64,000 nt of DNA from Spartobacteria bacterium. GTDB taxonomy: Bacteria > Verrucomicrobiota > Verrucomicrobiia > Chthoniobacterales > UBA10450. The first letter of the stretch is position 1, and the number at the start of each line of letters is the position of its first letter. Below are positions 27,873 through 59,570 of the stretch, piece after piece. The DNA lies in contig PLCN01000025.1 of the NCBI GenBank assembly GCA_003134785.1, positions 1 through 64,000 on the forward strand. The letters are read 5' to 3'. The notes under the pieces are model-generated. The model made no database searches. It saw only the letters and a program-made list of their open reading frames with translations, and had not been told where the DNA came from. The translations under genes and the position numbers were made by a program.

Positions 27873-28107
27873 AGGGCTGCGGCACATCGCGTCCGATGTG
27901 ACAAACCGCATCCCTTTCCGAGGTAGCTGCTCCCGCGCCAAAATCCCCGCTTTTTCCACGGTTCGCCGGCAGGTTTTCGACGCGGGCCAGCGGGAGCTCG
28001 GTTCCGTGCGCTTTCGCGACGTTGATTCGATCGGTCGAGAGCCAACCCGTTCGAAGACTTTTGGACTTCCGCGCGAGGCCTCGGCTGGTCAATGCTCTTT
28101 GCTTCCG

Positions 28108-32899: not shown

Positions 32900-33129
32900 T
32901 CTTCTGCAATTGAACGTTAGACGCTTGCTCGCGAATACTTTCGGAGTTGAGCGTTGGATGTTGAACGTTCGCTGGAAGCGCATGGTGCTGGACAATCGGC
33001 CTTCGCAAATCGAACTTCGCCAATCCGCTTGTCCACGTAATTCGGTTTTGAAAATCGTTAATCGCAAATCTAAAATCGAAAATGTCGGCGCGTCCCCGTA
33101 GTTCAAAACATAGAACGAGGGTCTCCTAA
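32900..33129 (+). pseudogene. tRNA-Arg fragment A (33092-33129) with upstream repeat block
   Basis: 33092-33129 matches the 5' half of the tRNA-Arg at 48139, from the acceptor strand through the anticodon loop (GTCCCCGTAGTTC... to TCTCCTAA), with a few changes. It then continues TTCGAC, the bases that also occur just after the intact tRNA. The upstream block is mosaic: 32900-32975 resembles the type seen at 40.0 kb, and 32980-33091 the type at 42.9 kb. No gene is seen in 32790-33370. Confidence 0.8.
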
Positions 33130-33199
33130 TTCGACTAGACCACTTCGTGAATCGACCGGCCACGCTGGCCCGCCCTTTTTTCTTCAGCACTTCGTGCGT

Positions 33200-33238
33200 T
33201 CATTCATCGAAATTCCCTTAGAGAAGTTCGATGAATGA
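33200..33238. repeat. 12-bp inverted repeat upstream of sugar dehydrogenase gene
   Basis: TCATTCATCGAA and TTCGATGAATGA pair perfectly around a 15-base loop, 130 bases before the start codon at 33371. It could be an operator or the terminator-like end of a lost gene. Confidence 0.55.
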
Positions 33239-33370
33239 CAAACTTGCCGAAATTCAGCTGTTCCGCAGCGTGCGGGTGTGATTCGTGCTCTAAGAAAGCG
33301 CACTTGGCCGGAGCGATCCCGCAGCAAGTTTGGTCGCAACTTCGCCACACGTTCAAGGTTTAAGAGACGC

Positions 33371-35860
33371 ATGCAACACGGAATCCGCACGGGTTTGTTA
33401 TCCCTTTTGGCGTTCTTGATTCTCCCTGTGAGCCTGACACGCGGAGCGACAACCATCGTCCGCGTCGCCTCTGGCAATGAATTAATCTTTTCGCCGAAGA
33501 GTGTCACGGTCCAGCCCGGCGACACCGTGAAGTGGATTTGGGACGGCAGTAGTCACGATGTGAAATCGGGCAGCCCGGGACAGCCAACCAATCTCTTTGG
33601 CACTCAGATCCAACCAAGCGGCGCCACCTATTCATACAAGTTCACTACGCCGGGAAATTTCCCCTACTTTTGTAGTCCGCACGGCGCGTGCTGCGGAATG
33701 GTCGGCACAATCACCGTCGCGGGCACGCCGCCTGCGACTCCCACGCCGACACCCACCCCCACTCCGGCGCCGCAGCCGACTCCATTACTTGCTCGCGTGC
33801 CCACGGGACCAATCAAGATCGAACTGCAAACAGTCGCCACCGGATTGATCGCACCGATCGACATGGTTTCGGCGAACGATGGCACTGGACGCCTTTTCAT
33901 TGTCCAGCAAAGCGGTCAGATCGTCCTTCTAAAGAATGGTCAACTCTCAGCTACCCCGTTTCTGGACGTCTCGAACCGGCTGGTGACACTGAGCACGTCT
34001 TACGACGAACGGGGCTTGCTCGGCGTGGCCTTTCATCCTGGCTTTAACGATTCGTCCAGCCCAGGCTATGGGAAGCTCTACACCTTCACAAATGAGCCGG
34101 TCACTGGTTCGGCCGACTTCACCGTCCCCGACACCTCGGCGTTTAATAACCAGGTGGTAATCGCAGAATGGAAGGTTTCAGCCAACAATGCCGATGCGGT
34201 CGACCCATCCACGCGCCGTGAAGTGTTGCGCATCGATCATCCGCAGTCTAACCACAACGGCGGTAAGATGGCATTTCGCGCCAGCGACCATTACCTTTAC
34301 TTCTCGATTGGCGATGGAGGACTCGCCGATGATGTCGGTCCTGGCCATAATCCAACGACCGGGAACGGACAGGACATCACAACCGTCTTGGGCAAGATAT
34401 TGCGGATTGATCCACTCGATCCTGCGCTGACCTCAAGCAGCGCTGATCCAATCAGTGCGAACGGAAAATATCGTATTCCTGTCTCCAATCCCTTTGTGGT
34501 CGTATCTAATCCGGCGAACCGAGCAGCAGAGATCTACGCCTACGGTTTGCGCAATGTCTTTCGCTTCAGCTTCGATCCCGTGACGGACAAGCTAATGGCC
34601 GGAGACGTCGGGCAGGACCACGTCGAGGAAATCGATATCATTGAAGCCGGCAAAAACTATGGCTGGAACCGGAAGGAAGGAACCTTCCTCTTCGATCCGG
34701 CGACCGGTGGAGACTCTTTTGATGCATCGCCCGATCCATCCCTGACCGATCCGATCGCTGAGTACAGCCACGATGACGGCATCGCAGTCATTGGGGGATT
34801 TGTCTACCGCGGCTCCGCTCTCCCGGCATTGACGGGCAAGTACGTCTTCGGCGACCTCGCTGCGCCCGGGACGGCAAGTGGCCGACTCTTTTATCTGGAT
34901 GACCTTGCCTCCGGTCCAATCAAGGAATTGAGCATCGGCACTCCCGCTCGCTCGCTTGGTCAGTTGCTCAAAGGCTGGGGCGAGGACGCACAAGGTGAAA
35001 TTTATGTTCTTGGCGATACGAATATTGGCCCCGGAGCAGCAAGCGGCAGCGTGTTTAAAGTTGTGCCGATACCTGTAGCACCATCCTTATTGAATCTATC
35101 AACCCGCTTGAGCGTTCAGACCGGCGACAATGTGCTGATAGGTGGCTTTATCATTACAGGCAGTTCTTCGAAAAACGTTTTATTGCGCGGGATGGGACCT
35201 TCGCTGGCCTCCAGTGGGCAACCAGTTGCTGGCCGCTTGAGCGATCCGACGCTTACGCTCTTTGACGGCGCTGGGACGGCGCTGCTCTCAAATGATGATT
35301 GGATGAACGGCACCCAGAAGCAGGAAATCATCGACAGCGGACTTGCGCCTGGTGATCCGAAGGAAGCGGCGATGATAGCCTTGCTCGAGCCGGGGAATTA
35401 TACAGCGATTCTGAGCGGCAAGAATGGTGCGACCGGGGTGGGCCTCTTGGAGCTTTACGATCTCGCGCAAAGCGCTCCGGCAAATGCGGTCAACATTTCG
35501 ACGCGAGGACTCGTCCAAACCGGCGATAACGTGATGATCGGCGGTTTCATCGTGGGCGGATCGAAAACCTCGCGCATCCTGGTCCGCGCGATAGGGCCGG
35601 AGTTGACGGCGGCCGGCGTCCCTGGCGCTCTTCAGGATCCGACACTCGAACTCCACGATGGCTCCGGCACAACAATAGCCACTAACGATAACTGGCGCTC
35701 AACCCAGCAAGCCGACATTGCCGCGACAATGTTAGCGCCGACCGACGATCGCGAATCAGCAATTCTCTCGACTCTCGCGCCTGGGAATTACACTGCGATC
35801 CTCCGCGGCAGCGGTGGATTGACCGGCGTGGCGCTATTCGAAGCTTACCAGTTACCCTAA
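33371..35860 (+). CDS. Secreted cupredoxin-sugar dehydrogenase fusion with paired C-terminal domains
   Basis: 829 aa from the ATG at 33371, which opens a signal peptide (LLSLLAFLILPVSLTRG). Residues about 27-115 are a plastocyanin-like cupredoxin with likely copper ligands in SSHDV and YFCSPHGACCGM. A Thr-Pro linker follows, then a PQQ-dependent glucose/sorbosone dehydrogenase-type propeller (about 150-570: DERGLLGVAFHPGF, HNGGKMAF, YGLRNVFRFSFDP, GKNYGWNRKEG). Two copies of the recurring domain end the protein. The fusion suggests direct electron transfer from PQQ to copper outside the cell; that is inference. Confidence 0.9.
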   Translation: MQHGIRTGLLSLLAFLILPVSLTRGATTIVRVASGNELIFSPKSVTVQPGDTVKWIWDGSSHDVKSGSPGQPTNLFGTQIQPSGATYSYKFTTPGNFPYFCSPHGACCGMVGTITVAGTPPATPTPTPTPTPAPQPTPLLARVPTGPIKIELQTVATGLIAPIDMVSANDGTGRLFIVQQSGQIVLLKNGQLSATPFLDVSNRLVTLSTSYDERGLLGVAFHPGFNDSSSPGYGKLYTFTNEPVTGSADFTVPDTSAFNNQVVIAEWKVSANNADAVDPSTRREVLRIDHPQSNHNGGKMAFRASDHYLYFSIGDGGLADDVGPGHNPTTGNGQDITTVLGKILRIDPLDPALTSSSADPISANGKYRIPVSNPFVVVSNPANRAAEIYAYGLRNVFRFSFDPVTDKLMAGDVGQDHVEEIDIIEAGKNYGWNRKEGTFLFDPATGGDSFDASPDPSLTDPIAEYSHDDGIAVIGGFVYRGSALPALTGKYVFGDLAAPGTASGRLFYLDDLASGPIKELSIGTPARSLGQLLKGWGEDAQGEIYVLGDTNIGPGAASGSVFKVVPIPVAPSLLNLSTRLSVQTGDNVLIGGFIITGSSSKNVLLRGMGPSLASSGQPVAGRLSDPTLTLFDGAGTALLSNDDWMNGTQKQEIIDSGLAPGDPKEAAMIALLEPGNYTAILSGKNGATGVGLLELYDLAQSAPANAVNISTRGLVQTGDNVMIGGFIVGGSKTSRILVRAIGPELTAAGVPGALQDPTLELHDGSGTTIATNDNWRSTQQADIAATMLAPTDDRESAILSTLAPGNYTAILRGSGGLTGVALFEAYQLP

Positions 35861-35953
35861 CAGCGGCTGCTAAAAGCACTGCAGCGAACTCCGAAGAGGT
35901 TCGGCGGGAGTGACTCGAGTTCGCACGTCACTGGCCAGTGCAATAACTCGGTC

Positions 35954-35971
35954 CCAGTTCACGTGAACTGG
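35954..35971. repeat. Perfect 18-bp palindrome
   Basis: CCAGTTCACGTGAACTGG is a perfect self-complementary sequence between the sugar dehydrogenase gene and fragment B. It may be a regulator site or the stem of a terminator. Confidence 0.5.
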
Positions 35972-35986
35972 TCCTGTGCAACTGTA

Positions 35987-36073
35987 CTATTGCGCTTCGG
36001 CCTTTTCGTTGTCCCGCGCCTTGTCTTTGTTCCAGAGATGGAAGGTGTAGGTGAAAACGACGTAATTGAGAAT
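35987..36073 (-). pseudogene. C-terminal gene fragment of unknown protein
   Basis: The minus strand reads ILNYVVFTYTFHLWNKDKAR and onward to a stop at 35987. Alternating strands and charged tail look like the end of a real protein, but upstream the frame runs into the repeat block of fragment B. Probably a remnant cut by the insertion there. Confidence 0.45.
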
Positions 36074-36095
36074 GTCACGGCGAGAAGGGTCAGAG

Positions 36096-36295
36096 TATTG
36101 ACACACATTCCTCGGGGCGAGTAGCAGGCACCTTGGAGCTAGCGATGGCAGTAGGATGCCGGTTGTTCGCGAAATACCTTCAAGTTCGCTTGCACGGACG
36201 CCAGCCGAATGGTGCTGGACAATCGGCAATCCCAAATCGAACTTCGTTAATCCGCTTGTCCAAGTAGTTCAACGGATAGAACGAGGGTTTCCTAA
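36096..36295 (+). pseudogene. tRNA-Arg fragment B (36258-36295) with upstream repeat block
   Basis: The upstream block (36096-36257) is nearly the same as 42786-42980. The tRNA part runs from a shortened acceptor strand (GTCCAAGTAGTTC) to TTTCCTAA, followed by GGCGAAAC as in fragment C. The acceptor junction suggests a deletion between two GTCC words of the block. From 36296 to 36525 no gene is seen; GGCATCCGGGTGACACA lies at 36417, the same 122-base offset as in fragment C. Confidence 0.8.
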
Positions 36296-36525
36296 GGCGA
36301 AACTGACGTTTTATCACACTTGATCAGCAGTCGTCTAAATTGCGCAATCGGCTGTTTGTTAGTGGATTACGCCGGAACTCTGTCAGCGCATCTCATCTGG
36401 AATCTGCCCATTTTTAGGCATCCGGGTGACACAGATTTTCCTGCTGGGCTTCGGCTCAGAAGGTGTGAAAAACCTGTTCAACACGCTCGACAATCAGCGA
36501 AGCAGTTTTCAATCTGACGTAATCA

Positions 36526-37689
36526 ATGCAAAGATCCCTTGACCTTCGCCTTAAGGACTTCGTTCCCGTTCCTGCAGGACTGCAAACTGCAAATTCAAGT
36601 GTCGCGGCTAGCATAGACGTCAGATTAGCGGACCTGTTTCACCATTACTGGCGGGACGCGCATTACCAGGCTGTTCCAAGCCCAAATCCAATTGCTCAGT
36701 GGTACATTTCCCTCCTAACGCCGGACGCGGCCTTTCGTTTTCGCGGTCCAAGTGTCGGGACCCACAAGGAGCCGCGGATTGCTCACCACAACTTGCTCGG
36801 CAAAGCGTTTTGCCGGTGGTTTCTGTCTGCCCATTGCGGAATTACCTATTTCGCGCACATGGAACACGTTCTAAAAGGGACGATTGATCCGATGTTTGGA
36901 TCGATTCAAGTAACCCGGGTAGGAGCCGGTGATACCCCTGACTACCTTTGCGCAGAGAACGCTCAAACACTTTGTCTCGCGGAAGCGAAAGGCACCGCGG
37001 CATCTATCTCATTCACCAATGCAGAATTCGGGCGATGGCGTCAACAGTTTGACCGTGTCGAGTTCCGAGATGCTAATGGGGTGCTCAGAGTGTTAAAGGG
37101 CTACATAGTGGCAACCCGTTTTGTGAGCGAGGATCATTCCGAAAATGTGCGCTCTGCCCTCTATGCCGAGGATCCTCGCACTCGAGGTGACGTAAGCTTG
37201 AATGTTCAACAAGAGGAAGGATTCCATCTTGCTCGTGCGACCATCGCTGGGCATTACGGCGTCGTGTTAGACAAGCTTCGCCTTCCGCTCTTGGCCACCG
37301 CGCTGCGGCAAGGCACGACTCTTCCAGCCGACTTGCCTATTCGCATGGCAATTTGGGAATGTTTAGTAGCTCCGGTTCAACAATCCCTCTTTGTCGGTGG
37401 ATATTTTGATCCACCTGATTGGCCCGCTGGCCAATGGCCGTACTTCGATTTCGTTGAACGCGTTGCCAGCCGCTTATGCTTATCCGCGGTTGGGTTGACA
37501 TTTTTTGGGCTCGAAATCGGGGCTTTCCAGACGATTCGCAACGCCTCGCTATCCGGTCGAGCGACGCTATCTGATGTGACTCCGCTCAGATTCGAAGCGG
37601 TTGCTCCCACGGAACTTAGCGTTTTTCGTGACGGAACAATCCTAGGTCCCGTCGATTTTTTCCGGTTTCGCGAGATACAGGAATTTTGA
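36526..37689 (+). CDS. Predicted PD-(D/E)XK-type nuclease, unknown family
   Basis: 387 aa, soluble, no recognised family. Residues about 135-165 read GDTPDYLCAENAQTLCLAEA then KG: an Asp followed after about 14 residues by E-x-K on a strand, the core of the PD-(D/E)XK nuclease fold. An upstream Glu/His helix (HNLLGKAFCRWFLS) could complete the site. The rest is mixed alpha/beta. It stands alone on the plus strand in module B-C of the tRNA array, with no methylase or helicase beside it. An orphan defence or mobile-element nuclease is possible; the assignment rests on motif reading only. Confidence 0.6.
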   Translation: MQRSLDLRLKDFVPVPAGLQTANSSVAASIDVRLADLFHHYWRDAHYQAVPSPNPIAQWYISLLTPDAAFRFRGPSVGTHKEPRIAHHNLLGKAFCRWFLSAHCGITYFAHMEHVLKGTIDPMFGSIQVTRVGAGDTPDYLCAENAQTLCLAEAKGTAASISFTNAEFGRWRQQFDRVEFRDANGVLRVLKGYIVATRFVSEDHSENVRSALYAEDPRTRGDVSLNVQQEEGFHLARATIAGHYGVVLDKLRLPLLATALRQGTTLPADLPIRMAIWECLVAPVQQSLFVGGYFDPPDWPAGQWPYFDFVERVASRLCLSAVGLTFFGLEIGAFQTIRNASLSGRATLSDVTPLRFEAVAPTELSVFRDGTILGPVDFFRFREIQEF

Positions 37690-37849
37690 ACGCGTTTTTC
37701 TTAGAGCTAACAAGTCCATCTCCCAATCTGAGGGTAGCCACAGACACGGTATTTCGAAACGTTCATTATGTGTCACACAAGACGGCGTGAGCTGACAAAC
37801 AACGAGCAATCCGTTGCCAAAATCACTGGTCGCGCGCGCCGATTCGTAA

Positions 37850-39817
37850 CTACTGCAGATTGTAAACTTCCACCAAACCAACACCAGTGCTGTTGTTCTT
37901 GCCGCGCACAATTGCGGTGTAGTTACCATGAGGAAGAGTTGCGATAAGGGCCGATTCCAAATCATTGGTTGGTGGAATAGTTGTCGCGCGGATGTCAGCT
38001 TCCTGTGACTGGCCGGTCTGATCGTTGATCTTCCAGTTGTCGTTGGTCTCAATCGTAGTTCCACTTCCGTCGTGCAATTCCAAGGTTGGATCGCCCAATG
38101 CGCCTGCTACGGGAACCGATGGTCCAAGTCCACGCACAATCACCGTGGCACTGCCGCCGCCGCTTCCTCCGCCCACGATAAATCCCCCGATCATGACGTT
38201 ATCACCCGTGTCCACAAATCCACGCGTGCTGATGTTCGCCAGCTTGGAGTTCGCGCCTTGCGCCAGATCGTAAACCTCGACTAAGCCCACGCCCGTCCCT
38301 CCATTCTTACCCGCAAGGATTGCGGTGTAGTTGCCAGGAGCAAGAGTTGCGATAAGGGCCGATTCCAAATCGTGGGCAGGTGGAATAGTGGTGACGCGGA
38401 TGTCAGCTTCCTGTGATTGGCCAGTCTGATCGTTGATTTTCCAGTTGTCGTTCGTGATTACCGTGCCGTCCGGCTGGTGTAGTTCCAAAGTCGGATCAGC
38501 TAACCGGCCTGGAATGGGGGTGCCATTCACATTGAGCGAAGGACCCATCCCCCGAATAATAACCTTCTTTGGGTCGGTTCCGGTGATGATAAAACCACCG
38601 ATCAGCACTTGGTCACCCGTAAGAACGCGCATCCGCGTGGAAATGTTGATCAAGGACTGCCCGACGTAGAGTTCCGCACTCGAGAGAGAACCGGTGCCGT
38701 TATAACCTCCTGTAACAAGCACCTTGCCATTGGCCAGCGATGTCGCCGTGTGAAGAGAGCGTCCGGTGGCGAGGCTGCCGGTCGCCATCCAGGTCCCGCT
38801 CGTCGGATCGTACATTTCCGCGTTCGCCAGAGAGCTGTTGGTGCCGCTAACTCCGCCTGCGACAAGCACGTTGCCGTTGGGCAGCAACGTCGCCGTGCCA
38901 CTATCGCGTGCGGTGGCGAGGCTGCCGGTCGCCGTCCACGTCCCGCTCGCCGGATCGTACAGTTCCGCACTCGCGAGCTCGACGCTGTTGTTGTTGAAGC
39001 TGTTGTTGTTAGAACCTCCAGCAACAAGCACCTTGCCGTTGGGCAGCAACGTTGCCGTGTGAAGATAGCGTGCGGTGGCGAGGCTGCCGGTCGCCGTCCA
39101 GGTCCCACTCGCCGGATCGTACAGTTCCGCGCTCACGAGAATGCTGCTGAAGTTACGCCCTCCTGCGACAAGCACCTTGCCGTTGGGCAGCAACGTTGCC
39201 GTGTGATAATAGCGTGCGGTCGCGAGGCTGCCGGTGGCCGTCCAGCTCCCGCTCGCCGAATCGTACAGCTCCGCGCTTGCGAGAGAGGCTGTGCCGAATA
39301 CATAACCGCCTGCGACAAGCACCTTGCCGTTGGGCAACAACGTTGCCGTATGACTATCGCGTGCGGTGGCAAGGCTGCCGGTCGCCGTCCACGTCCCGCT
39401 CGCCGGATCATACAGTTCCGCGCTCGCGAGCTCGAAGCTGTTGTTATTAGAACCTCCAGCAACAAGCACCTTGCCGTTGGGCAGCAACGTCGCAGTGTGA
39501 AGATAGCGTGCGGTGGCAAGGCTGCCGGTCGCCGTCCACGTCCCACTCGCCGGATCGTACAGTTCCGTGCTTGCCAGAGAGTTGTTGGTGCCGCGATTAT
39601 AACCTCCTGCGACAAGCACCTTACCGTTGCGCAGAAACGTAGCCGTGTGGTAATAGCGTGCGGTGGCGAGGCTGCCGGTGTTTTCAAAAACAACGGAAGC
39701 GCTCGCGCACGGCTGCACCAGCACCGCGCCTAAAAACAACAGCGGGAACGCAACCTGCCAAGCAAGAGCCGACCTAGCGGACGGAAGACCGGCCCCGAGG
39801 GGATGCAATATTTTCAT
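37850..39817 (-). CDS. Secreted Kelch-repeat protein with paired C-terminal domains
   Basis: 655 aa. Signal peptide (about 18-40, ending ASA). Seven Kelch repeats (about 45-400) of the form GSLATARYLHTATLLPNGKV then LVAGG and ELYDPASGTWTAT, almost identical to each other at DNA level. Two copies of the recurring domain end the protein (about 405-655). The near-identity of repeats points to recent repeat expansion or gene conversion. A seven-bladed propeller for binding is likely. Close paralogue of the gene at 40514. Confidence 0.9.
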   Translation of the reverse strand: MKILHPLGAGLPSARSALAWQVAFPLLFLGAVLVQPCASASVVFENTGSLATARYYHTATFLRNGKVLVAGGYNRGTNNSLASTELYDPASGTWTATGSLATARYLHTATLLPNGKVLVAGGSNNNSFELASAELYDPASGTWTATGSLATARDSHTATLLPNGKVLVAGGYVFGTASLASAELYDSASGSWTATGSLATARYYHTATLLPNGKVLVAGGRNFSSILVSAELYDPASGTWTATGSLATARYLHTATLLPNGKVLVAGGSNNNSFNNNSVELASAELYDPASGTWTATGSLATARDSGTATLLPNGNVLVAGGVSGTNSSLANAEMYDPTSGTWMATGSLATGRSLHTATSLANGKVLVTGGYNGTGSLSSAELYVGQSLINISTRMRVLTGDQVLIGGFIITGTDPKKVIIRGMGPSLNVNGTPIPGRLADPTLELHQPDGTVITNDNWKINDQTGQSQEADIRVTTIPPAHDLESALIATLAPGNYTAILAGKNGGTGVGLVEVYDLAQGANSKLANISTRGFVDTGDNVMIGGFIVGGGSGGGSATVIVRGLGPSVPVAGALGDPTLELHDGSGTTIETNDNWKINDQTGQSQEADIRATTIPPTNDLESALIATLPHGNYTAIVRGKNNSTGVGLVEVYNLQ

Positions 39818-39928
39818 CGTTTAGGCCTGCACGCATAACATCTAACACTTAAGTATACCGACAAGTTCAACGGTTATCCAGCGTATTAATCGACAAGAGC
39901 CGCACGGCGCTAAATAAAACACAAAGGC

Positions 39929-40143
39929 GGATATGGGGTCGCGTCTCAATATTTTGATATTTCGGCAGAGACTCGGGAGTTAAATCTTGGCCTCTGCCCC
40001 GCGCTTCGGCTCCTCTTCATCTTGTCTCCTTTTTCTGCAATTGGACGTTGGACGCCTGCTCGCGAATACTTTCGGAGTTGAATGTTGGACGTTGGCTTCC
40101 GACAGTGTCCCGTAGTTCAGCGGATAGAACGAGGGTTTCCTAA
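39929..40143 (+). pseudogene. tRNA-Arg fragment C (40107-40143) with upstream repeat block
   Basis: Block 39929-40106 matches the region directly upstream of the intact tRNA (GATATTTCGGCAGAG, CTGCAATTGGACGTTGGACG). The tRNA part has one C deleted in the acceptor strand (GTCCCGTAGTTC) and ends TTTCCTAA, followed by GGCGAAAC. GGCATCCGGGTGACACA occurs at 40265. No gene is supported in 39818-40513. Confidence 0.82.
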
Positions 40144-40513
40144 GGCGAAACGGGCCATTTTGCTGGTGTTCGATCCAGTCATCCGTCGTACGCAAAAAGC
40201 TGTAACGCCATCGATTGCCACTACTTTCGCGTCATCAGCATTAATCACGAATACGCTGATTTTCGGCATCCGGGTGACACAACGTGCGACACAAACGTGC
40301 GACATGCCAGACCACCATCCGTAAAGTTCACTCTCTGCTCTGCCTGAAAAGATCAGCGAAGGGCTCGCCTTTGAGTCGGACAGTGCAAACACTCATTCGG
40401 TCAAGTTCCCTAACCCACCTCTTAGTGCCGCCAGTGTAGCTAAGGTGAATGGCTTCGAGACGTGATGGCACTAGAGGAGAAGCGGACGATCTTTGTCTGC
40501 CGATGATTCGTAT

Positions 40514-42490
40514 CTACTGTAGGTTGTAAACTTCTACCAACGCGACTCCGGTCGTGCTGTTCTTCCCGCGCACAATTGCGGTGTAATTGTCGGGCACTAA
40601 TGTGGCGACGATGGCCGATTCCAAATCGTTGGTAGGAGCAACAGTCGTCGCCTCAATCTCAGATTGCTGGCTGCTGCCATCAGCCCGCGTCTTCCAGTCG
40701 TCGTTGGTTACAATCATAGTGCCACTGGCGTTGTGCAGTTCAAGGGTTGGATCAGCTAATCGGCCTGGAACTGGGGTGCCATTCACACTGAGTGATGGGC
40801 CAATTGCGCGCACAATCACTTTGGCAGAGCCGCCGCCGGTTCCGCCTCCCACGATAAACCCACCGATCATGACGTTGTCGCCGGTATCGACAAAACCACG
40901 GGAACTGATATTGGCTAGCTGGGAATTCGCGCCTTGCGCCAGATCGTAGACCTCGACTAACCCGACGCCCGTTCCTCCGTTCTTACCCGCAAGGATTGCG
41001 GTGTAGTTGCCGGGGGTAAGCGTCGTCACTATTGCAGATTCTAAGTCGTTTAACGGCGGAATTGTCGTGGCGCGGATGTCAGTTTCCTGTGATTGACCGG
41101 TCTGATCGTTGATCTTCCAGTTGTCGTTCGTAATGACCGTGCCGTCCGATTGATGGAGCTCCAGAGTCGGATCGGACAAAGTAACCCCGACACCATTGAG
41201 CGAAGGACCCATTCCCCGAATGATTACTTTCTTTGGATCAGTCCCAGTGACGATAAAGCCACCGATGAGAACTTTGTCATCGGCAAGAACACGCATGCGC
41301 GTGGAAATGTTAAGTAGCTGGGCTGGAATAGGTGGTGGCCCACCGTAAAGTTCCGCGCTCGCGAGAATGCTACCGTTGTTGTCATTCCCTCCTGCCATAA
41401 GCACCTCGCCGTCGGATAGCAACGTCGCCGTGTGAACAACGCGTGCGGTCGCGAGGCTCCCGGTCGCAGTCCAGCTCCCGCTCGCCGGATCGTAGAGTTC
41501 CGCGCTCGTGAGAGCGCTACCGTTGTTGTCCACTCCTCCTGCGACGAGCACCTTGCCGTCAGACAACAACGTCGCTCCGGGAATATAGCGTCCCGTAGCG
41601 AGGCTGTTTGTCGCGGTCCAGGTCTCGCTCCCCGGATCGAACAGTTCCGCAATCGCGAGGGCGCCGCTGCTGCCACCGCCTCCCGCGACAAGCACCTTGC
41701 CATTGGGCAGTAAGGTAGCCGTGTGAAAATGACGTGCGGTCCCGAGGCTCCCGGTCGCAGTCCAGGTCCCGCTCGCCGGATCGTATATTTCCGTGCTCGC
41801 GGAGAAGCCACTATTGTCCACTCCTCCTGCGACGAGCACCTTCCCGTTCTGCAGCAACGTCGCCTTGTGCTCTCGGCGTGCAGTGGAGAGGTCACCGGTC
41901 GCGGTCCAGGTCCCGCTCGCGGGATCGTACAGTTCCGCGCTCGCAAGTACGGCGGTGGTGCCGCTCTGACCTCCCGCGACAAGCACCTTGCCATTGAGGA
42001 GCAACGTCGCCGTATATAGACGGCGCGCCGTGCCGAGGCTCCCAGTCGCAGTCCAAGTCTGGCTCGCCGGATCGTACAGTTCCGCGCTCGCGAGATCGCC
42101 GCTGGTGCTTTCGTCGATCACTCCTGCTGCAACGAGCACTTGGCCGTTCTGCAGCAACGTCGCCGAGTGATAAAAGCGTGCGGCAGCGAGGCTCCCGGTC
42201 GCGGCCCAGGTCCCACTCGCCGGATCGTACAGTTCCGCGCTCGCGAGAACGCCGCTAGTGCCGCCAATGCCTGCTGCGACAAGCACCTTGCCGTTGGGCA
42301 GCAACGTTGCCGTATGCTCATAGCGCGCATCAGCGAGAGTGCCGGTGTCAGTGAAAACACCGGAAGCGCCCGCGCGCGGCTGCACGAGCACCAGCCCCGC
42401 GCCAAGAGAAAGCATCGGGAACGCGACCCGCCGCGCAAGAATTGAGGTAGCCAACAGAAGACTGCCAGTAAGCGAATGCAATTTTTTCAT
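40514..42490 (-). CDS. Secreted Kelch-repeat protein with paired C-terminal domains
   Basis: 658 aa. Signal peptide region about 8-42 (ending RAGASG). Seven Kelch repeats (GSLGTARHFHTATLLPNGKV type), more diverged from each other than in the paralogue at 37850. Then two copies of the recurring domain (about 405-658), the first with VLADDKVLIGGFIVTGTDPK and the second with GFVDTGDNVMIGGFIVGGG. The two Kelch genes sit in neighbouring modules of the tRNA array, so they may have duplicated along with it. Confidence 0.9.
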   Translation of the reverse strand: MKKLHSLTGSLLLATSILARRVAFPMLSLGAGLVLVQPRAGASGVFTDTGTLADARYEHTATLLPNGKVLVAAGIGGTSGVLASAELYDPASGTWAATGSLAAARFYHSATLLQNGQVLVAAGVIDESTSGDLASAELYDPASQTWTATGSLGTARRLYTATLLLNGKVLVAGGQSGTTAVLASAELYDPASGTWTATGDLSTARREHKATLLQNGKVLVAGGVDNSGFSASTEIYDPASGTWTATGSLGTARHFHTATLLPNGKVLVAGGGGSSGALAIAELFDPGSETWTATNSLATGRYIPGATLLSDGKVLVAGGVDNNGSALTSAELYDPASGSWTATGSLATARVVHTATLLSDGEVLMAGGNDNNGSILASAELYGGPPPIPAQLLNISTRMRVLADDKVLIGGFIVTGTDPKKVIIRGMGPSLNGVGVTLSDPTLELHQSDGTVITNDNWKINDQTGQSQETDIRATTIPPLNDLESAIVTTLTPGNYTAILAGKNGGTGVGLVEVYDLAQGANSQLANISSRGFVDTGDNVMIGGFIVGGGTGGGSAKVIVRAIGPSLSVNGTPVPGRLADPTLELHNASGTMIVTNDDWKTRADGSSQQSEIEATTVAPTNDLESAIVATLVPDNYTAIVRGKNSTTGVALVEVYNLQ

Positions 42491-42493
42491 AAT

Positions 42494-42643
42494 TTAGGCT
42501 CGCATGTTTTTCCGCAGCGACGCCGCTGCCGCCCGGGGTCGCAAATCAATCGGTGAAGAGTTCGACCCGTTCGGCACTACCAGCAGTGCCAGAATGAACA
42601 GCGAAAGAGTGCCAGCCCTTATGTGCAAGGTGTAGTTTTTCAT
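42494..42643 (-). CDS. Possible 49-residue signal-peptide-like ORF
   Basis: The minus strand reads MKNYTLHIRAGTLSLFILAL and continues LLVVPNG, a signal-peptide-like start with a GGAAAA just upstream, ending three bases before the Kelch gene ATG. It may be a leader, a remnant of another secreted protein, or chance. The surrounding gap 42491-43129 otherwise holds only repeat block D. Confidence 0.25.
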   Translation of the reverse strand: MKNYTLHIRAGTLSLFILALLVVPNGSNSSPIDLRPRAAAASLRKNMRA

Positions 42644-42785
42644 TTTTCCGATAGCCCTTCATTGACATAAAGCGGAAATGGCCACGAGATGGGGCCAGAT
42701 ATTTTCCGCGAATCATCTTCTCGCCTTTCTTCAAATTGGCGAGCCGCTGAACCTCTGGGCGCCGTCGTCTGGTTGGGTCGGAGAT

Positions 42786-43070
42786 CATAAGGGGTCAGAG
42801 CCAAGTGGCCAGGTATTGACACACATTCCTCGCGGCGAGTAGCAGGCACCTTGGAGCTAGCGATGGCAGTCGGATGCGGGTTGTTCGCGAAATACCTCGA
42901 AGTTCGCTTGCGCGAACGCCAGCCGAATGGTGGTGGACAATCGGCAAGCGCAAATCGAACTTCGCCAATCCGCTTGTCCACGTAATTCGGTTTTGCAAAT
43001 CGGAAATCACAAATCTAAAATCGCAAATGTCGGCCGTCCCCGTAGTTCAACGGATAGAACGAGGGTTTCC
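42786..43070 (+). pseudogene. tRNA-Arg fragment D (43036-43070) with upstream repeat block
   Basis: Block 42786-43035 has the same left part as block B (GTATTGACACACATTCC, GGCACCTTGGAGCTAGCGAT) and the same right part as block A (GTAATTCGGTTTTG to AATGTCGGC). The tRNA portion is intact from GTCCCCG to TTTCC, then breaks within the anticodon into ATCTCCGCCC. Confidence 0.82.
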
Positions 43071-43129
43071 ATCTCCGCCCTAAAAGGTCATTAAATTACC
43101 TCGTAAATTGGATTGCGCTTTGTATAAGA

Positions 43130-43254
43130 ATGGCGGCCAAGAAGAAAGTGAAGTACTGGGAAATCATCGCGGATCGTCTGAGCAAATCAGGCTGGAGCTG
43201 GGGCTGCGTCGCGGTGATCAATGCAGCAGGGCGTGTTGAAATGGTCGCCCGCTG
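43130..43254 (+). pseudogene. N-terminal fragment of a small conserved protein
   Basis: MAAKKKVKYWEIIADRLSKS then GWSWGCVAVINAAGRV matches the start of a small widespread protein (KYWEIIAD...GWSWGCVS type) usually about 70 residues long. After AGRV the sequence becomes the antisense of the SOD fragment, so the 3' half is lost. Function of the family is unknown. Confidence 0.6.
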
Positions 43255-43528
43255 AACTTGCATCGACTGCCCTGCAGGCGCCAAACTCGTGCACATGAAA
43301 TCCGTGCTTGCCTGGAGTGAGTCCGTGAACGTCGGCATCAACACGTACGCCATCTTCGACTTCGGTGAACGTCACTACACCGGCTGCGTTATTGCCCTCC
43401 GTGGGATGAAGGACGGCGACGGCTCTTAATGGATCCTCGGTATCTTTTGTAGACTGCCCGGCGACGACAGGAATAGAAAAAAATGCCAAGATCAGTGAGA
43501 GCCTGCGCGCTATTACCGATAATTTCAT
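43187..43528 (-). pseudogene. Cu/Zn superoxide dismutase, N-terminal fragment
   Basis: Signal peptide start at 43528 (MKLSVIARRLSLILAFFSIP), then the SOD start VLHPTEGNNAAGVVTFTEV and the copper-ligand region KHGFHVHEFGACR, then SSAGDHFN. From about 43236 the frame runs into the antisense of another gene fragment. The rest of the enzyme, including remaining metal ligands and the active-site Arg, is missing. Not functional. Confidence 0.8.
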
Positions 43529-43755
43529 GTTTGCATTCCGTATGCGCGCTGTTCGACCGTGCACGCACGCTTATTCGCCTGAACCTATGTTCTATGCCTT
43601 ATTTTCTTAGACCCGTTTGTCACCGCTGATGTTCAGTTGTGGAGAAAGAAGTTGCCGTTGATTGGGCTTTCGACAACAACGACCGATTGATCCGAATCTT
43701 TATTGAGAAAAGGGACTGCCACTTAGTGAGTCCGGCGCTGAATCGGTAGCCGGGG

Positions 43756-44010
43756 TCAGGCGCTGCCATCGCGCGGTAACGTAGGCGGCAGCCCGTAGAA
43801 GATCACCGGAATAATGCCGAGGGCAACCGCTGCACAGATTGTCAGCGTCGTAACGATCGGATTGATCTTCGGCGCAGCTTGCCCTTCGCTGATACTGAGA
43901 TGCCGGTGTCTTTCACCAACGCCAACGGTGATCGAAGCGAACAATATGATGACCGCCACGGCTTCACAGGCAATGAAACGCAGAAATTTCTTTCGCTGGT
44001 GTACTCTCAT
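43756..44010 (-). CDS. Small two-pass membrane protein
   Basis: 84 aa from the ATG at 44010. Basic start (MRVHQRKKFLRF), hydrophobic segments at about 13-31 and 55-76. No family recognised. It lies 45 bases downstream of the HPr-like gene on the same strand and may share its transcript. Confidence 0.45.
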   Translation of the reverse strand: MRVHQRKKFLRFIACEAVAVIILFASITVGVGERHRHLSISEGQAAPKINPIVTTLTICAAVALGIIPVIFYGLPPTLPRDGSA

Positions 44011-44055
44011 CCTGATCCCAGGGACACGCTCCTCTTGCGGCACACATGCGTAAGT

Positions 44056-44358
44056 TTACGCAGGCGTCCGTTTTTCCTGAACCGGCTCATCGAGCGCGAC
44101 CGCCACGGAGGAGACGAATACCTGTTCGATTGCTTGCGCTGCCTCCCGTTCGTCCTCGCCACTCGCCTCCACGTTAAGGGTAGTTCCCATCGTAGCACAC
44201 AACGCGATTACGCTTAGGATGCTGCGGATATCCGCGATCTTCCCACCGTCTCTTAGGAGAATCGTCGAACGGAACTGCTGTCCTGTCCGCACTAATTTCG
44301 CCGCGTGGCGAAGATGCAAGCCCTCCGTCCAATGGACCATCACGGCGGCTCGCTTCAT
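44056..44358 (-). CDS. HPr-family phosphocarrier-like protein
   Basis: 100 aa. GLHLRHAAKLV holds His15 at the usual HPr phosphorylation site (the family has GLHARPA; the Pro is His here). RSILSVIALCATMGTTLNVE corresponds to the Ser46 region, followed by SGEDEREAAQAI. An orphan in this module: no EI, EII or HPr kinase is nearby. Length slightly above the usual 85-90 because of a C-terminal tail. Probably regulatory rather than a sugar-PTS component; that is inference. Confidence 0.8.
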   Translation of the reverse strand: MKRAAVMVHWTEGLHLRHAAKLVRTGQQFRSTILLRDGGKIADIRSILSVIALCATMGTTLNVEASGEDEREAAQAIEQVFVSSVAVALDEPVQEKRTPA

Positions 44359-44630
44359 TCCTTTCTTTGACTGGAGTCGGTGGCTTTTCGTTCAGTTTTT
44401 GTCTGCGGTTGGTTTTTTTTCAAAAGCGAAACGTTATTGTACGACACGTTCAAAAATTGCCGGAAAAGGCGAAGACACTCGCGACATCGACCGGAATTGA
44501 GAGAACTAGCGCGACGAGACAATGGTGTTAACCGAGTAGGAAAAGCCGCGCGCGAAGCACGCCTGCTTCTATTCGAAGGCGCACCGGTACAAATTGTCGA
44601 AAGCTGCCTCTCGATATGGGGTCCTCTCGA

Positions 44631-44815
44631 TATGGGGTTGCGTCTAAATAGTTTGATATTTCGGCAGAGGCTTTGGAGTTTAAATCTTGAGCTCGCCCCC
44701 GCGCGCTTCGGCTCCTCCAGCCCGTGTTTCCTTTTCTGCAATTGGACGTTGGACGTTGGACGTTTGCTTTCGACAGCGTCCCCGTAGGTCAACGGATAAA
44801 ACGAGGGTTTCCTAA
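44631..44815 (+). pseudogene. tRNA-Arg fragment E (44778-44815) with upstream repeat block
   Basis: Block 44631-44777 is close to the block upstream of the intact tRNA. The tRNA part has GTAGGTC for GTAGTTC and ATAAAAC for ATAGAAC, ends TTTCCTAA and continues TTCGA, as fragment A does. Between the HPr gene start and this block (44360-44630) no gene is supported. Confidence 0.82.
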
Positions 44816-44840
44816 TTCGAAAGGACCCCCACAGGGAAGG

Positions 44841-45170
44841 TCAAGTCTCGATCTCCCCACTATCGGGAGTTATCCGAAGTGCGAAGCAATCAGCCTGGCG
44901 AGGAAACAAATTATGTTCAGCGTCAGGACTCACCTGTTCGGGGGCGCACATTAGATTATTATCCCAGGGTTTTCCCTGGAACGACATGATGAATGGGCCG
45001 GCGACTCTAACAACAGCGAGCAACCCATGCTCCTTACGCAGCTTGACGAGCCAATTGCGTTGCGTGTCGGAGAGGGCTTGCGCTGCGTTGCCGCTTTTGA
45101 GCGCCGCGTCGTAGAAGTCGAGCATGATTTGGACGGTGCTTTCGTCACTAACGGGCCAGAGGGTCATCAA
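44841..45170 (-). pseudogene. C-terminal fragment of a CHAT-domain protein
   Basis: TLWPVSDESTVQIMLDFYDA and KSGNAAQALSDTQRN match the last part of CHAT (caspase-like) domains, where SLWpV.D..T...M..FY and AL..AQ are typical. The catalytic His/Cys region upstream is missing. After about 44950 the sequence no longer looks conserved. CHAT proteins act in bacterial defence and cell-death systems; this one is a remnant. Confidence 0.6.
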
Positions 45171-45383
45171 AAGATTTTGGGTGCCGGCTTGAACGCCGGC
45201 CTCCCGCTACGACGCCATGTCTGTCGGGGATAGGTTGACATGAACTGCCTGAGGATTGCCGACGATACAAATAAATCGCACCAAGCGTACAAGTGTGAAA
45301 TTCGTCATCTTGCTGCGGATTAGGCCCGCGCGCGAAAAAAATTCTTTGTCGAATCGGGAAGGAATAATGTCTACACTTTGACG

Positions 45384-47837
45384 ATGTCCACTGACACACC
45401 CTCTGATTTTGAGATGGAGATCGCGTACGTGCTCTTCATCGACGTGGTGGGCTTCACGCGGCTGCTGATCAACGAACAGGGCGATGTACTAAACTCGCTG
45501 AACGGAGTCATTCGCAAAACCGCGGCTTTTCAAAGCGCCGAGTCGGCCGGGAAACTGGTGCGGCTTCCGGCCGGAGACGGAATGGCGCTGGCGTTTCTCA
45601 CTCAGCCGGAAGCGCCAGTAAAGTGTGCGCTTGAGATCAGTGAAGCGTTAAAAAACGATCCCCGGTTGCAGGTGCGCATGGGGATCCATAGTGGGCCGGT
45701 TAGCGCCATAACAGACGTGAACGATCGCCGCATCGTCGCCGGGACCGGCATTAACATGGCACAACGGGTAATGGACTGCGGCGATGCCGGACACATCCTG
45801 CTTTCAAGGCGGATCGCAGACGACCTCGCTCAATATACCCGTTGGACTCCGCACTTGCATGACCTGGGCGTGGCAGAAGTAAAGCACGGCGTCAAAATCG
45901 ACTTGGTCAATCTTTACACCGCCGTCGCCGGTAATCCGGCACCACCCCAGAAAATCAGAGCTGCGGAAACACCAAAAGCCACCGAGGTGGCGACTGACGG
46001 TGAGCAAGCTCGCGCCGGCAACCGCAAACGTGCGCTAACTCTGTCAGCGATCCTCTTGCTGAGTCTCCTAGCGATAAGCCTGTTTCTTGTTCTTAATCGC
46101 ACCTCTCCGAAATCGGCTACTGCTCCCGCGACTACTCTCGTCCCCGTCGAGACAACCAACAGAAAGTCTGTTGCGGTGCTACCATTCGAAAATTTGAGCG
46201 GTGATCCGGATAACGGGTTTTTCACCGATGGCGTTCAGGATGAAATCCGCACCGACCTAGCGAAGGTAGCTGATCTCAAAGTCATCAGCCGCACAAGCGT
46301 GATGCAATACAAGACGACAACGGGGCGCAATCTGCCGGACATCGCGCAGGCGCTGAAAGTGGCACACATTCTGGAAGGCAGTGTGCAACGCGCGTCGAAT
46401 CGAGTGCGCGTTGCCGTCCAGCTCATCGACGCTCGGGCCGATACACAACTTTGGGCGGAGCACTACGATCGTCCGCTCGACGATGTCTTTGCAATCCAGA
46501 GTGAAATTGCAAAGGCGATCGTCGAACAGCTACGCGCCAGGATTTCCCCCAGTGAAAAGGCCGCGATCGAAAAACCGCCGACCAACAATCTCGCCGCCTA
46601 CGATCTGTATAACCAGGCTAAAGCGCTGATCGCCACCAGTGCTTTTGGGGCGCGGTTCCGGGGGGACCTCTCACAAGCGGCGCATCTGCTGGATGAGGCG
46701 GTGCTTCGAGACCCGCTTTTCATGGCAGCCTATTGCGAATTAGCCGGCGTGCATGACTATATTTATTTTTATGGAATCGACCCTACGCCAGCCCGACTAG
46801 CGCTGGCCGAAGCAGCGGTCACGAGTGCGCTGAAGTTGGGTCCTGAGAGCGGCGAGGCGCACTTGACGAAGGCGCAACATCTGTATTGCGGCTATTTCGA
46901 CTATGATGGAGCTCGGGCAGAAATTGCCATTGCGCGCCGGACTTTACGGGATGACCCGCGAGTTCTCGAATTGACTGGCTACATCGACCGTCGCCAGGGC
47001 CGGCAGAAGGAAGGATTGGAAAATCTCGAACGAGCGAGCGAGCTCGATCCACGGAACTTCGAGATCCTGCAGGAGATCGCGCTTAGTTATGGTGCGTTTC
47101 GCCGTTATCCCGAGATGGCAGCAATCCTCGATCGTGCTCTCGCGATCGTTCCGGCCGAAGTGGCCCTAGACACGAGAGCAGCGCGCGCCCAAGTAAATCT
47201 GGATTGGCAGGCCGATACTCGCCCGCTGCACGCCGTGATGGAAGAGAGTCTTGCGAAAAATGCTGCTGCGGCAGAAGGCGTCGCGGACAATTGGTTATAC
47301 CTCGCTTTATGCGAGCGCGACGCAGTGTCCGCTAACCGCGCGCTTGCGGCCTTGGGAAATAATACGTTCGGTCCGGATGCAATTCTCTTTAGTCATACGT
47401 TCGGCGAAGGCCTTGTCGCGCGCATGGAAGGGAAGACCGCGGCGGCACAGGTCGCTTTCCTGGCCGCTCGCGCACAGCAGGTAGAGGCTATCCGATCGCA
47501 AGGTGAGTACGCCCCTGCACTCTGCGTCCTCGGCATGATTGACGCCGCACTCGGGCGAAAGGAAGATGCATTGCAGGAGGGCCGGCGCGCCGTGGAGCTT
47601 CTCCCGCTCGAGCGAGACGCGTTGAACGGGCTTCGCGTACGCACGTTCCTCGCCGTGATCTATGCGTGGACCGGAGAGAAGGATCTGGCTTGTCAACAAC
47701 TTGACAGCACACTCCAGATTCCTGCATCCGCGAGCTATGGTGAGTTACGCTTGCATCCGTACTGGGATCCGCTGCGCGGCGATCCTTGTTTTGAAAAAAT
47801 TGTAGCTAGCCTCGCCCCGAAAAAGGATGGGAACTAA
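45384..47837 (+). CDS. Class III cyclase fused to TolB-like and TPR domains
   Basis: 817 aa from the ATG at 45384 (a TTG two codons upstream is less likely). Same plan as the gene at 25419: cyclase domain (VLFIDVVGFTRLL, LPAGDGMALAF, GINMAQRVMDCGDAGHILLS), one membrane helix (about 215-235), TolB-N-like part (KSVAVLPFENLSGDPDNGFF, DGVQDEIRTDLAKV) and about ten TPR-like repeats, ending PYWDPLRGDPCFEKIVASLA. It lies in the last module of the tRNA array, so one copy of this family has been mobile or duplicated. Confidence 0.9.
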   Translation: MSTDTPSDFEMEIAYVLFIDVVGFTRLLINEQGDVLNSLNGVIRKTAAFQSAESAGKLVRLPAGDGMALAFLTQPEAPVKCALEISEALKNDPRLQVRMGIHSGPVSAITDVNDRRIVAGTGINMAQRVMDCGDAGHILLSRRIADDLAQYTRWTPHLHDLGVAEVKHGVKIDLVNLYTAVAGNPAPPQKIRAAETPKATEVATDGEQARAGNRKRALTLSAILLLSLLAISLFLVLNRTSPKSATAPATTLVPVETTNRKSVAVLPFENLSGDPDNGFFTDGVQDEIRTDLAKVADLKVISRTSVMQYKTTTGRNLPDIAQALKVAHILEGSVQRASNRVRVAVQLIDARADTQLWAEHYDRPLDDVFAIQSEIAKAIVEQLRARISPSEKAAIEKPPTNNLAAYDLYNQAKALIATSAFGARFRGDLSQAAHLLDEAVLRDPLFMAAYCELAGVHDYIYFYGIDPTPARLALAEAAVTSALKLGPESGEAHLTKAQHLYCGYFDYDGARAEIAIARRTLRDDPRVLELTGYIDRRQGRQKEGLENLERASELDPRNFEILQEIALSYGAFRRYPEMAAILDRALAIVPAEVALDTRAARAQVNLDWQADTRPLHAVMEESLAKNAAAAEGVADNWLYLALCERDAVSANRALAALGNNTFGPDAILFSHTFGEGLVARMEGKTAAAQVAFLAARAQQVEAIRSQGEYAPALCVLGMIDAALGRKEDALQEGRRAVELLPLERDALNGLRVRTFLAVIYAWTGEKDLACQQLDSTLQIPASASYGELRLHPYWDPLRGDPCFEKIVASLAPKKDGN

Positions 47838-47983
47838 GAAGGGGTGTGGCGGATGGAATCAATTCCTAATTCCAAAGTGAGTTACACATATGCGCGCTAC
47901 ATGGTTTACACTTATGCATCATCTTTTATTAACGATAACCGGAAAATGCGGTGAGGGGCGGCACCGGTCGGTAAGCAATGATG

Positions 47984-48138
47984 GAGTCGCGTCTAAATAT
48001 TTTGATATTTCGGCAGAGGCTTTGGAGTTTAAATCTTGACCTCGCCCCCGCGCTTCGGCTCCTCCAGCCCGTGTTTCCTTTTCTGCAATTGGACGTTGGA
48101 CGTTGGACGTTGAATGTTGGACGTTTGCTTTCGACAGC
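47984..48138 (+). repeat. Upstream repeat block of the intact tRNA-Arg
   Basis: Contains GATATTTCGGCAGAGGC, a GC-rich stretch, and TTGGACG tandem copies (48089-48123) before TTTGCTTTCGACAGC. The same block precedes fragments C and E with different TTGGACG copy numbers. It should hold the tRNA promoter. Confidence 0.75.
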
Positions 48139-48210
48139 GTCCCCGTAGTTCAACGGATAGAACGAGGGTTTCCTAAACCTTAAATGTGGGTTCAATTCCC
48201 GCCGGGGACA
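48139..48210 (+). tRNA. tRNA-Arg (anticodon CCU)
   Basis: 72 nt. Acceptor GTCCCCG pairs with CGGGGAC (203-209), discriminator A. D stem GTTC/GAAC with GG in the loop. Anticodon stem AGGGT/ACCTT around TTCCTAA, anticodon CCT at 48172-48174. Four-base variable loop. T stem GTGGG/CCCGC with loop TTCAATT. CCA is not encoded. It reads AGG codons, which should be rare in this GC-rich genome. Confidence 0.95.
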
Positions 48211-59390: not shown

Positions 59391-59570
59391 ACTTCTCCCT
59401 CTCCGCCGCAACGTTGCTGTTGACTCGTTAGGTAAACTCTTGGTCTGGATTAGCAGAAGAGACCACGAATGTCAGCTCCAACCTTCGTCTCGTTTCCGTG
59501 TCTTGGACACGAAACGGCGTGACCCGGCTTTTGCTGGAATGGAGTCCAGCAGGTTATCGAGCGCTCCGGG

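Follow-up and report, generated by a model that had tools for sequence, protein, structure and literature searches.

The window, the 64,000-nucleotide stretch of a Spartobacteria bacterium genome that was analysed as a whole, contained an intact tRNA-Arg(CCT) gene and, upstream of it, five fragments corresponding to the 5' half of this gene (F1 to F5), all on the plus strand (Table 1). Four of the five halves extend precisely to the last base of the anticodon loop (TTTCCTAA), and the fifth stops 3 nt earlier. Each half is preceded by a tRNA leader, of which two types occur in the window, and five modules (M1 to M5) of about 1.7-3.8 kb lie in tandem. The 387-aa protein encoded in M2 had no family match. 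A separate 3' half of the tRNA was not found in the window, and a genome-wide search with the last 22 bases of the half followed by GGC (up to three mismatches) yielded no matches outside the array locus. A tRNA intron was ruled out by reasoning: the 3' half is kilobases distant and is preceded by a new, full-length 5' half. The tRNA was also the only Rfam hit.

Table 1. Coordinates of the tRNA-derived and module features in the window.
Feature	Position	Strand	Remarks
tRNA leader before F1	32902..33091	+	both leader types in series
tRNA 5' half F1	33092..33129	+	4 mismatches to tRNA bases 1-38
Module M1	33130..36295	+	GSDH/plastocyanin protein 33278-35860 (+); different left end (TTCGA...)
tRNA leader type 2	36095..36257, also 42813-43035	+	92% identical over 176 bp
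tRNA 5' half F2, left border of M2	36258..36295	+	2 mismatches
Module M2	36296..40143	+	387-aa protein 36526-37689 (+); Kelch protein 37850-39817 (-)
Conserved left end of M2	36296..36435	+	model R1, E 3.4e-23
17-base word in M2	36417..36433	+	last ten bases GGGTGACACA, proposed left arm site; second copy not recognisable
tRNA leader type 1	39933..40105, also 44632-44777 and 47981-48138	+	80.8-88.9% identical
tRNA 5' half F3, left border of M3	40106..40143	+	4 mismatches
Module M3	40144..43070	+	Kelch protein 40514-42490 (-)
Conserved left end of M3	40144..40286	+	model R1, E 3.6e-23
17-base word in M3	40265..40281	+	GGGTGACACA, then decayed copies near 40284-40306
tRNA 5' half F4	43036..43070	+	identical to tRNA bases 1-35; stops 3 nt before the end of the others
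Module M4	43071..44815	+	no sizeable gene
tRNA 5' half F5	44778..44815	+	2 mismatches
Module M5	44816..48176	+	cyclase-domain/TPR protein 45378-47837 (+); ends in intact tRNA
Intact tRNA-Arg(CCT), target gene	48139..48210	+	ARAGORN; Rfam

The original prediction held that M2 and M3 (its modules B and C) start alike, and both its coordinates and its words were correct. In each module GGCGAAAC directly follows TTTCCTAA, the junction reading GGATAGAACGAGGGTTTCCTAA and then GGCGAAAC (36274-36303 and 40122-40151), and the 17-base word GGCATCCGGGTGACACA starts exactly 122 nt past the end of the tRNA piece (36295 and 40143). Up to three mismatches being allowed, this word had two matches in the window (shuffle mean 0.16). 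Across the 4.39-Mb genome, with at most one mismatch, it had exactly two, the M2 and M3 copies, and a reversed control pattern had none. In this genome-wide search, which the prediction itself had proposed, both 17-mers lay 122 nt after a tRNA-Arg 5' half, and the word was not common and unlinked to tRNA pieces, the outcome named beforehand as a refutation. The longest run shared at the same offset after the first eight bases was 17, with a maximum of 10 in 20,000 shuffles. Shuffles and genome-wide search together ruled out a chance repeat. The statement that the two copies diverge between the shared words was too strong, as 67 of 140 bases agree at equal offsets and 77 of 141 in an alignment. 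This agreement is attributed to the whole stretch of ~145 bp being one homologous left end. An inverted repeat in its first 24 bases was mildly above shuffles (mean z -1.17, n=14; later windows, -0.35 to 0.23). The conserved left end was not seen in M1, M4, and M5. A second kind of left end was observed in M5 (window 44816-44900) and at a locus of a relative (G024; L059 near 7916, minus strand); both copies start with TTCGAAA and resemble each other again over a stretch some 60 nt from the start.

When the 72-bp tRNA was searched in 83 genomes of the family, most of the relatives being fragmented MAGs, 45 matches to the 5' half only (in 29 genomes, including that of the window) were counted by hand from the match list, versus two to the 3' half only. 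This ratio, and the stop of four of the five window halves at the end of the anticodon loop, favour a reading by integration. Named records with halves comprised Verrucomicrobia, Spartobacteria, and Chthoniobacterales MAGs, one Ca. Udaeobacter and one Roseibacillus record (16 stretches). In the Roseibacillus MAG (L201, PARF01000049.1), the tRNA-Arg 5' half was not followed by the next base of the tRNA.

The DNA after many of the tRNA-Arg(CCT) 5' halves in relatives could be aligned over ~145 bp. For the alignment, 14 of 25 examined fragments were used, the others being too short, diverged, or equipped with another left end. The 145-position model built from them gave 28 matches in 18 of 58 relatives, with two genomes from other families of the order. 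Most matches stood straight after a tRNA-Arg half; the exceptions were copies that were truncated or at a contig edge, a small number of weak matches, and genome G053, in which a tRNA-Met 5' half precedes the left end. These results support the proposal that M2 and M3 carry related left ends of one element family. Independently of the model, the pattern GGGTGACA-N(2-6)-GGGTGACA was found 13 times in 11 of the 83 genomes (reversed control, one match) and not in the genome of the window. Eleven of the 13 matches were left ends of the family, and in two of these cases no tRNA half could be recognised in front. Of the other two matches, one was the right end of an element in genome G017, and one (G018) was unrelated. 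The left end had no match in phage records, the integrase and the paired repeat had none in viral contigs, and a search of literature titles and abstract beginnings returned no description of this element family.

Several other arrangements were observed in relatives. On the reverse strand of L223 (about 1770-1500; G099:C279), two left ends stand in series, the second behind a sequence that is not a tRNA, agrees with the usual core only over about TTCCTAA and is perhaps a secondary insertion site. In four genomes (L047, L049, L238, and L237; G012:C123, G034:C87, G067:C239, and G099:C279), a 5' half and a full-length tRNA-Arg face each other instead of standing in tandem, as if a stretch had been inverted. 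In L047 (2699-3892; G012), the intact tRNA and a tRNA half bearing a left end enclose a MreB gene, which is unusual company for a mobile module. A contig with two left ends (G002:C35) also carries a second tRNA-Arg(CCT)-like gene, which is degenerate (L114:7453-7524).

Among 37 loci scanned, seven elements (two in G016 and one each in G012, G001, G004, G053, and G017) had a tRNA 5' half at their far end; at the other loci none was found within the stretch examined. The element in G017 was the sole complete tRNA-Arg(CCT) element found, extending over 5.5 kb between a tRNA-Arg(CCT) half and the intact gene. Its tyrosine recombinase ORF starts 31 bp from the tRNA, is directed away from it and, read by eye, encodes what we take to be the usual catalytic residues. 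The element further has a superinfection-immunity domain, a weak match to a rolling-circle Rep (E 2e-4), and two ORFs for which Pfam gave no match. GGGTGACACA forms a direct-repeat pair at both ends of this element, at the left ~130 bp inside the junction and at the right between the tyrosine-recombinase gene and the restored tRNA; GGGTGACACAA pairs lie 128 nt inward from the left junction and, at the other end, 43 nt before the tRNA. The tRNA-Met element of G053, whose integrase is 30% identical to that of G017, has GGGTTACAAAATCGGGTTACAA as the pair at both ends, and those of G016, G012, and G004 have a repeat pair of the GACCGTAGAA type. In six of the seven elements, the right arm matched the element's own left end above shuffles, always 113-135 nt from the junction, a range that includes the 122 nt of M2 and M3; G001 failed (p 0.218). 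The same pair at both ends of the integrase-bearing G017 element, and different pairs where integrases had diverged, support the suggestion that the shared words are perhaps recombinase arm sites, a function that remains putative. In the G053 integrase (L113:10319-11392), a glycine is aligned with the first catalytic arginine of the G017 enzyme and the histidine of what we take to be the HxxR motif is absent; this integrase may be inactive.

Homologues of the integrase adjoin a tRNA gene and diverge from it at 30 of 33 loci, the query itself (L123) included (20 of 23 in L123-L145; 10 of 10 in L226-L235). Among the tRNAs targeted are those for Thr, Met, Arg, Ala, Pro, Leu, Ser, Phe, Asn, and Val. 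Direct repeats before the tRNA reached p 0.05 at 18 of 32 integrase loci versus eight of 24 controls, which is weak as a stand-alone test. A comparison of the integrase with plasmids gave 67 records, all below 60% identity, and the eight listed were below 27%. Against a defence-gene library, the three window proteins given had no match and one G017 ORF had a weak one (0.0065).

That GGGTGACACA is a regulatory or replication repeat of the element, such as a promoter operator or an iteron, and not an integrase site is considered very improbable. Its location would suit such a role, since at the right end it is found between the integrase gene and the tRNA and at the left end it precedes the first cargo gene; the weak Rep match makes iterons conceivable. 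However, it occurs at both extreme ends, the repeat differs where the integrases diverged, and no Rep match was obtained for the two ORFs scanned in G053 (the integrase and a protein of 146 aa), although that element has the same layout. By these comparisons, the 17-base word would most likely be part of a left integrase arm site.

In the window, PF00589 had no match, and an integrase remnant was ruled out with the integrases of two relatives as queries (best E 0.32). The genome had eight PF00589 matches, and the two integrases closest to the G017 enzyme (33-35%) were located at tRNA-Thr genes with other repeats upstream. Neither a cognate integrase nor a paired arm site was found in the genome. 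Two integrases of the family were observed in it at tRNA-Thr(TGT) and tRNA-Thr(CGT) (G000:C4, L153; G000:C11, L154), with their own direct repeats before the tRNA and with no 5' half found within the 20 kb examined. A right arm like that of G017 was not found at the right end of any window module; the best match in M5 had p 0.014 but lay 260 bp from the tRNA and was without a pair. M2 and M3 share with the G017 family a conserved left end directly after a 5' half; their left arms are single or decayed copies in place of paired repeats at both ends, and an integrase pointing away from the restored tRNA is missing. In view of the missing cognate integrase and right arm, the array looks immobile unless a suitable integrase arrives.

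The right ends of the modules carry host-like leaders, which plain integration does not predict. Single tRNA-Arg loci in the same genus have leaders similar to those of the window, so that the window leaders look host-derived. Repair from an unoccupied locus and cassettes mobilised in trans are both compatible with these right ends. According to the latter explanation, units that consist of a left end with arms, cargo, a leader and a tRNA 5' half and encode no integrase themselves would be moved by the integrase of a co-resident element, and the array would behave as a gene-cassette array jointed by tRNA halves. This is unlikely, although left-arm ends outnumber right-arm ends by 11 to 1, small modules of mostly one or two genes, including cyclase/TPR genes, recur in several genera, and the genome retains arms and halves without a cognate integrase. 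Every window module is without a right arm, the left arms of M2 and M3 are decayed, neither a circular form nor strain-to-strain movement was seen, and local rearrangement explains the host-like leaders equally well.

In a tree of 23 left ends, in which most inner branches were weak, M2 grouped with left ends of genus g4 and M3 with those of genus g1, and a topology that forced M2 and M3 together was rejected (AU p 1e-8). M2 and M3 are therefore two lineages of one family present at this tRNA and not copies of each other; local duplication of a single left end was ruled out by the same test. Tandem duplication of a host stretch (gene, leader, and tRNA) as the chief builder of the array, with the left ends as passive leftovers of one old insertion, is accordingly improbable: besides the non-sister left ends, the other modules contain unrelated genes, and duplication alone leaves unexplained why halves stop at the anticodon loop in many genera. 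Such a history would fit the host-derived look of the leaders. It would also fit the Kelch genes of M2 and M3, which have a C-terminal domain in common with the K gene (30579-32789), all three genes occupying the same place before a leader and a half.

An integrase-bearing element at tRNA-Arg(TCT) in G016 contains Kelch genes with 57-65% identity to their M2 and M3 counterparts. This is consistent with Kelch proteins as element cargo, but such genes are common in these genomes. In a genome of the same genus (G007), a gene 79% identical to 30579-32789 lies beside the leftmost half, and a junction resembles F3 over 230 bp (79.6%), the contents being otherwise different. A strong expansion of the cyclase/TPR family was also observed (window 25419-27959, 45378-47837, 57312-59411, and 59571-61646; 17 scored matches in the genome). 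Match numbers were similar in most family members; as the family is very large in these genomes, a cyclase/TPR gene in a module proves little.

Taken together, it is highly probable that the left ends of M2 and M3 derive from small integrative elements at one tRNA, with GGGTGACACA as the left arm, and that the modules are stacked remnants without integrase. The family would comprise small integrative elements of soil Verrucomicrobiota (Chthoniobacterales and kin). In its circular form, an element would be inserted by its tyrosine recombinase at the anticodon loop of a tRNA gene, in this case tRNA-Arg(CCT). As the element would carry a copy of the tRNA 5' half, the host 5' half would be displaced to the left and an intact tRNA restored at the right. 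Direct repeats of ~10 bp, present as one pair some 113-135 bp inward from the left junction and as another immediately before the restored tRNA, would provide arm-type integrase sites, as judged from position and from joint change with the integrase; GGGTGACACA, the 3' part of the word, would be the left one. The halves, the left ends, the repeat pairs at either end of complete relatives, the integrases next to tRNAs and the separate lineages of M2 and M3 are seen in the sequences themselves, whereas we infer the exact crossover point, the binding of the arms, and the circular intermediate. At least two lineages of elements would have entered the same tRNA, resulting in the tandem array of five modules, and the window modules would have lost, or never had, the integrase and right arm, their right ends bearing host-type tRNA leaders. 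Insertion order and right-end replacement are likewise points that we infer. The modules are most likely stacked integrase-less remnants that were possibly once mobilised in trans.

Cis-mobilizable elements (CIMEs) and tandem accretion are known from streptococci; CIMEs are modules that are flanked by att sites, lack integrase and transfer genes and occur next to or inside stacked elements. In the window, halves flank the modules and no integrase was found; right arms are missing, and att function would be putative. In integron cassette arrays, tandem modules of one or two genes are separated by short recombination sites, whereas the joints in the window are tRNA halves with the ~145-bp left end, and no tyrosine recombinase was found there. 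In the account of the Islander report (PMC4383910), islands with tyrosine integrases interrupt a tRNA gene and re-create it, with a displaced fragment left behind; an anticodon-loop crossover is among the known subsites, and 5' fragments are a minority (159 of 3919 islands). That account requires an integrase per island and a length of at least 2 kb, and it lists four tandems of three or more. Compared with the islands so described, the window is alike in its intact tRNA and five displaced 5' fragments upstream in the same orientation (plus strand). It differs in its five modules in tandem and in their lack of an integrase, which is present in G017 and G053; M4 (about 1.7 kb) falls below the length limit and the other four modules are longer. 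Because of the missing integrase, the modules were classified as integrase-less members or remnants and not as complete islands. The report on tandem ssrA islands of Dehalococcoides (PMC3146451) describes cargo islands lined up at one small-RNA gene; 15 of these islands are without integration modules and were suggested to be cis-mobilizable or fixed. As described there, that system involves a serine recombinase, the 3' end of tmRNA, and direct repeats of 20 bp; the present one involves a tyrosine recombinase (in relatives), a tRNA 5' half, and arm-like repeats.

The array works like tRNA-gene genomic islands with tandem accretion, and its 5'-half layout, stack length, and one-sided arms are distinctive. 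Island finders that demand an integrase per island would overlook such arrays. The odd shared word would be explained as an integrase docking site, and the comparison exposes, in abundant and mostly uncultured soil bacteria, a broad integrase family that carries the rarely reported tRNA 5' half and has many tRNA targets. Since the end repeats differ between enzyme lineages, the family offers a natural data set for changes in the arm and target specificity of integrases. A more speculative and rather unlikely reading is that gene modules of about 1.7-4 kb with one arm and no integrase spread among soil Verrucomicrobiota. They would be moved in trans by a broad integrase family for which the 5' halves of many different tRNA genes serve as sites, and would accumulate as arrays in the anticodon loop of one tRNA. 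If true, such arrays would be an integron-like gene store with tRNA halves as joints.
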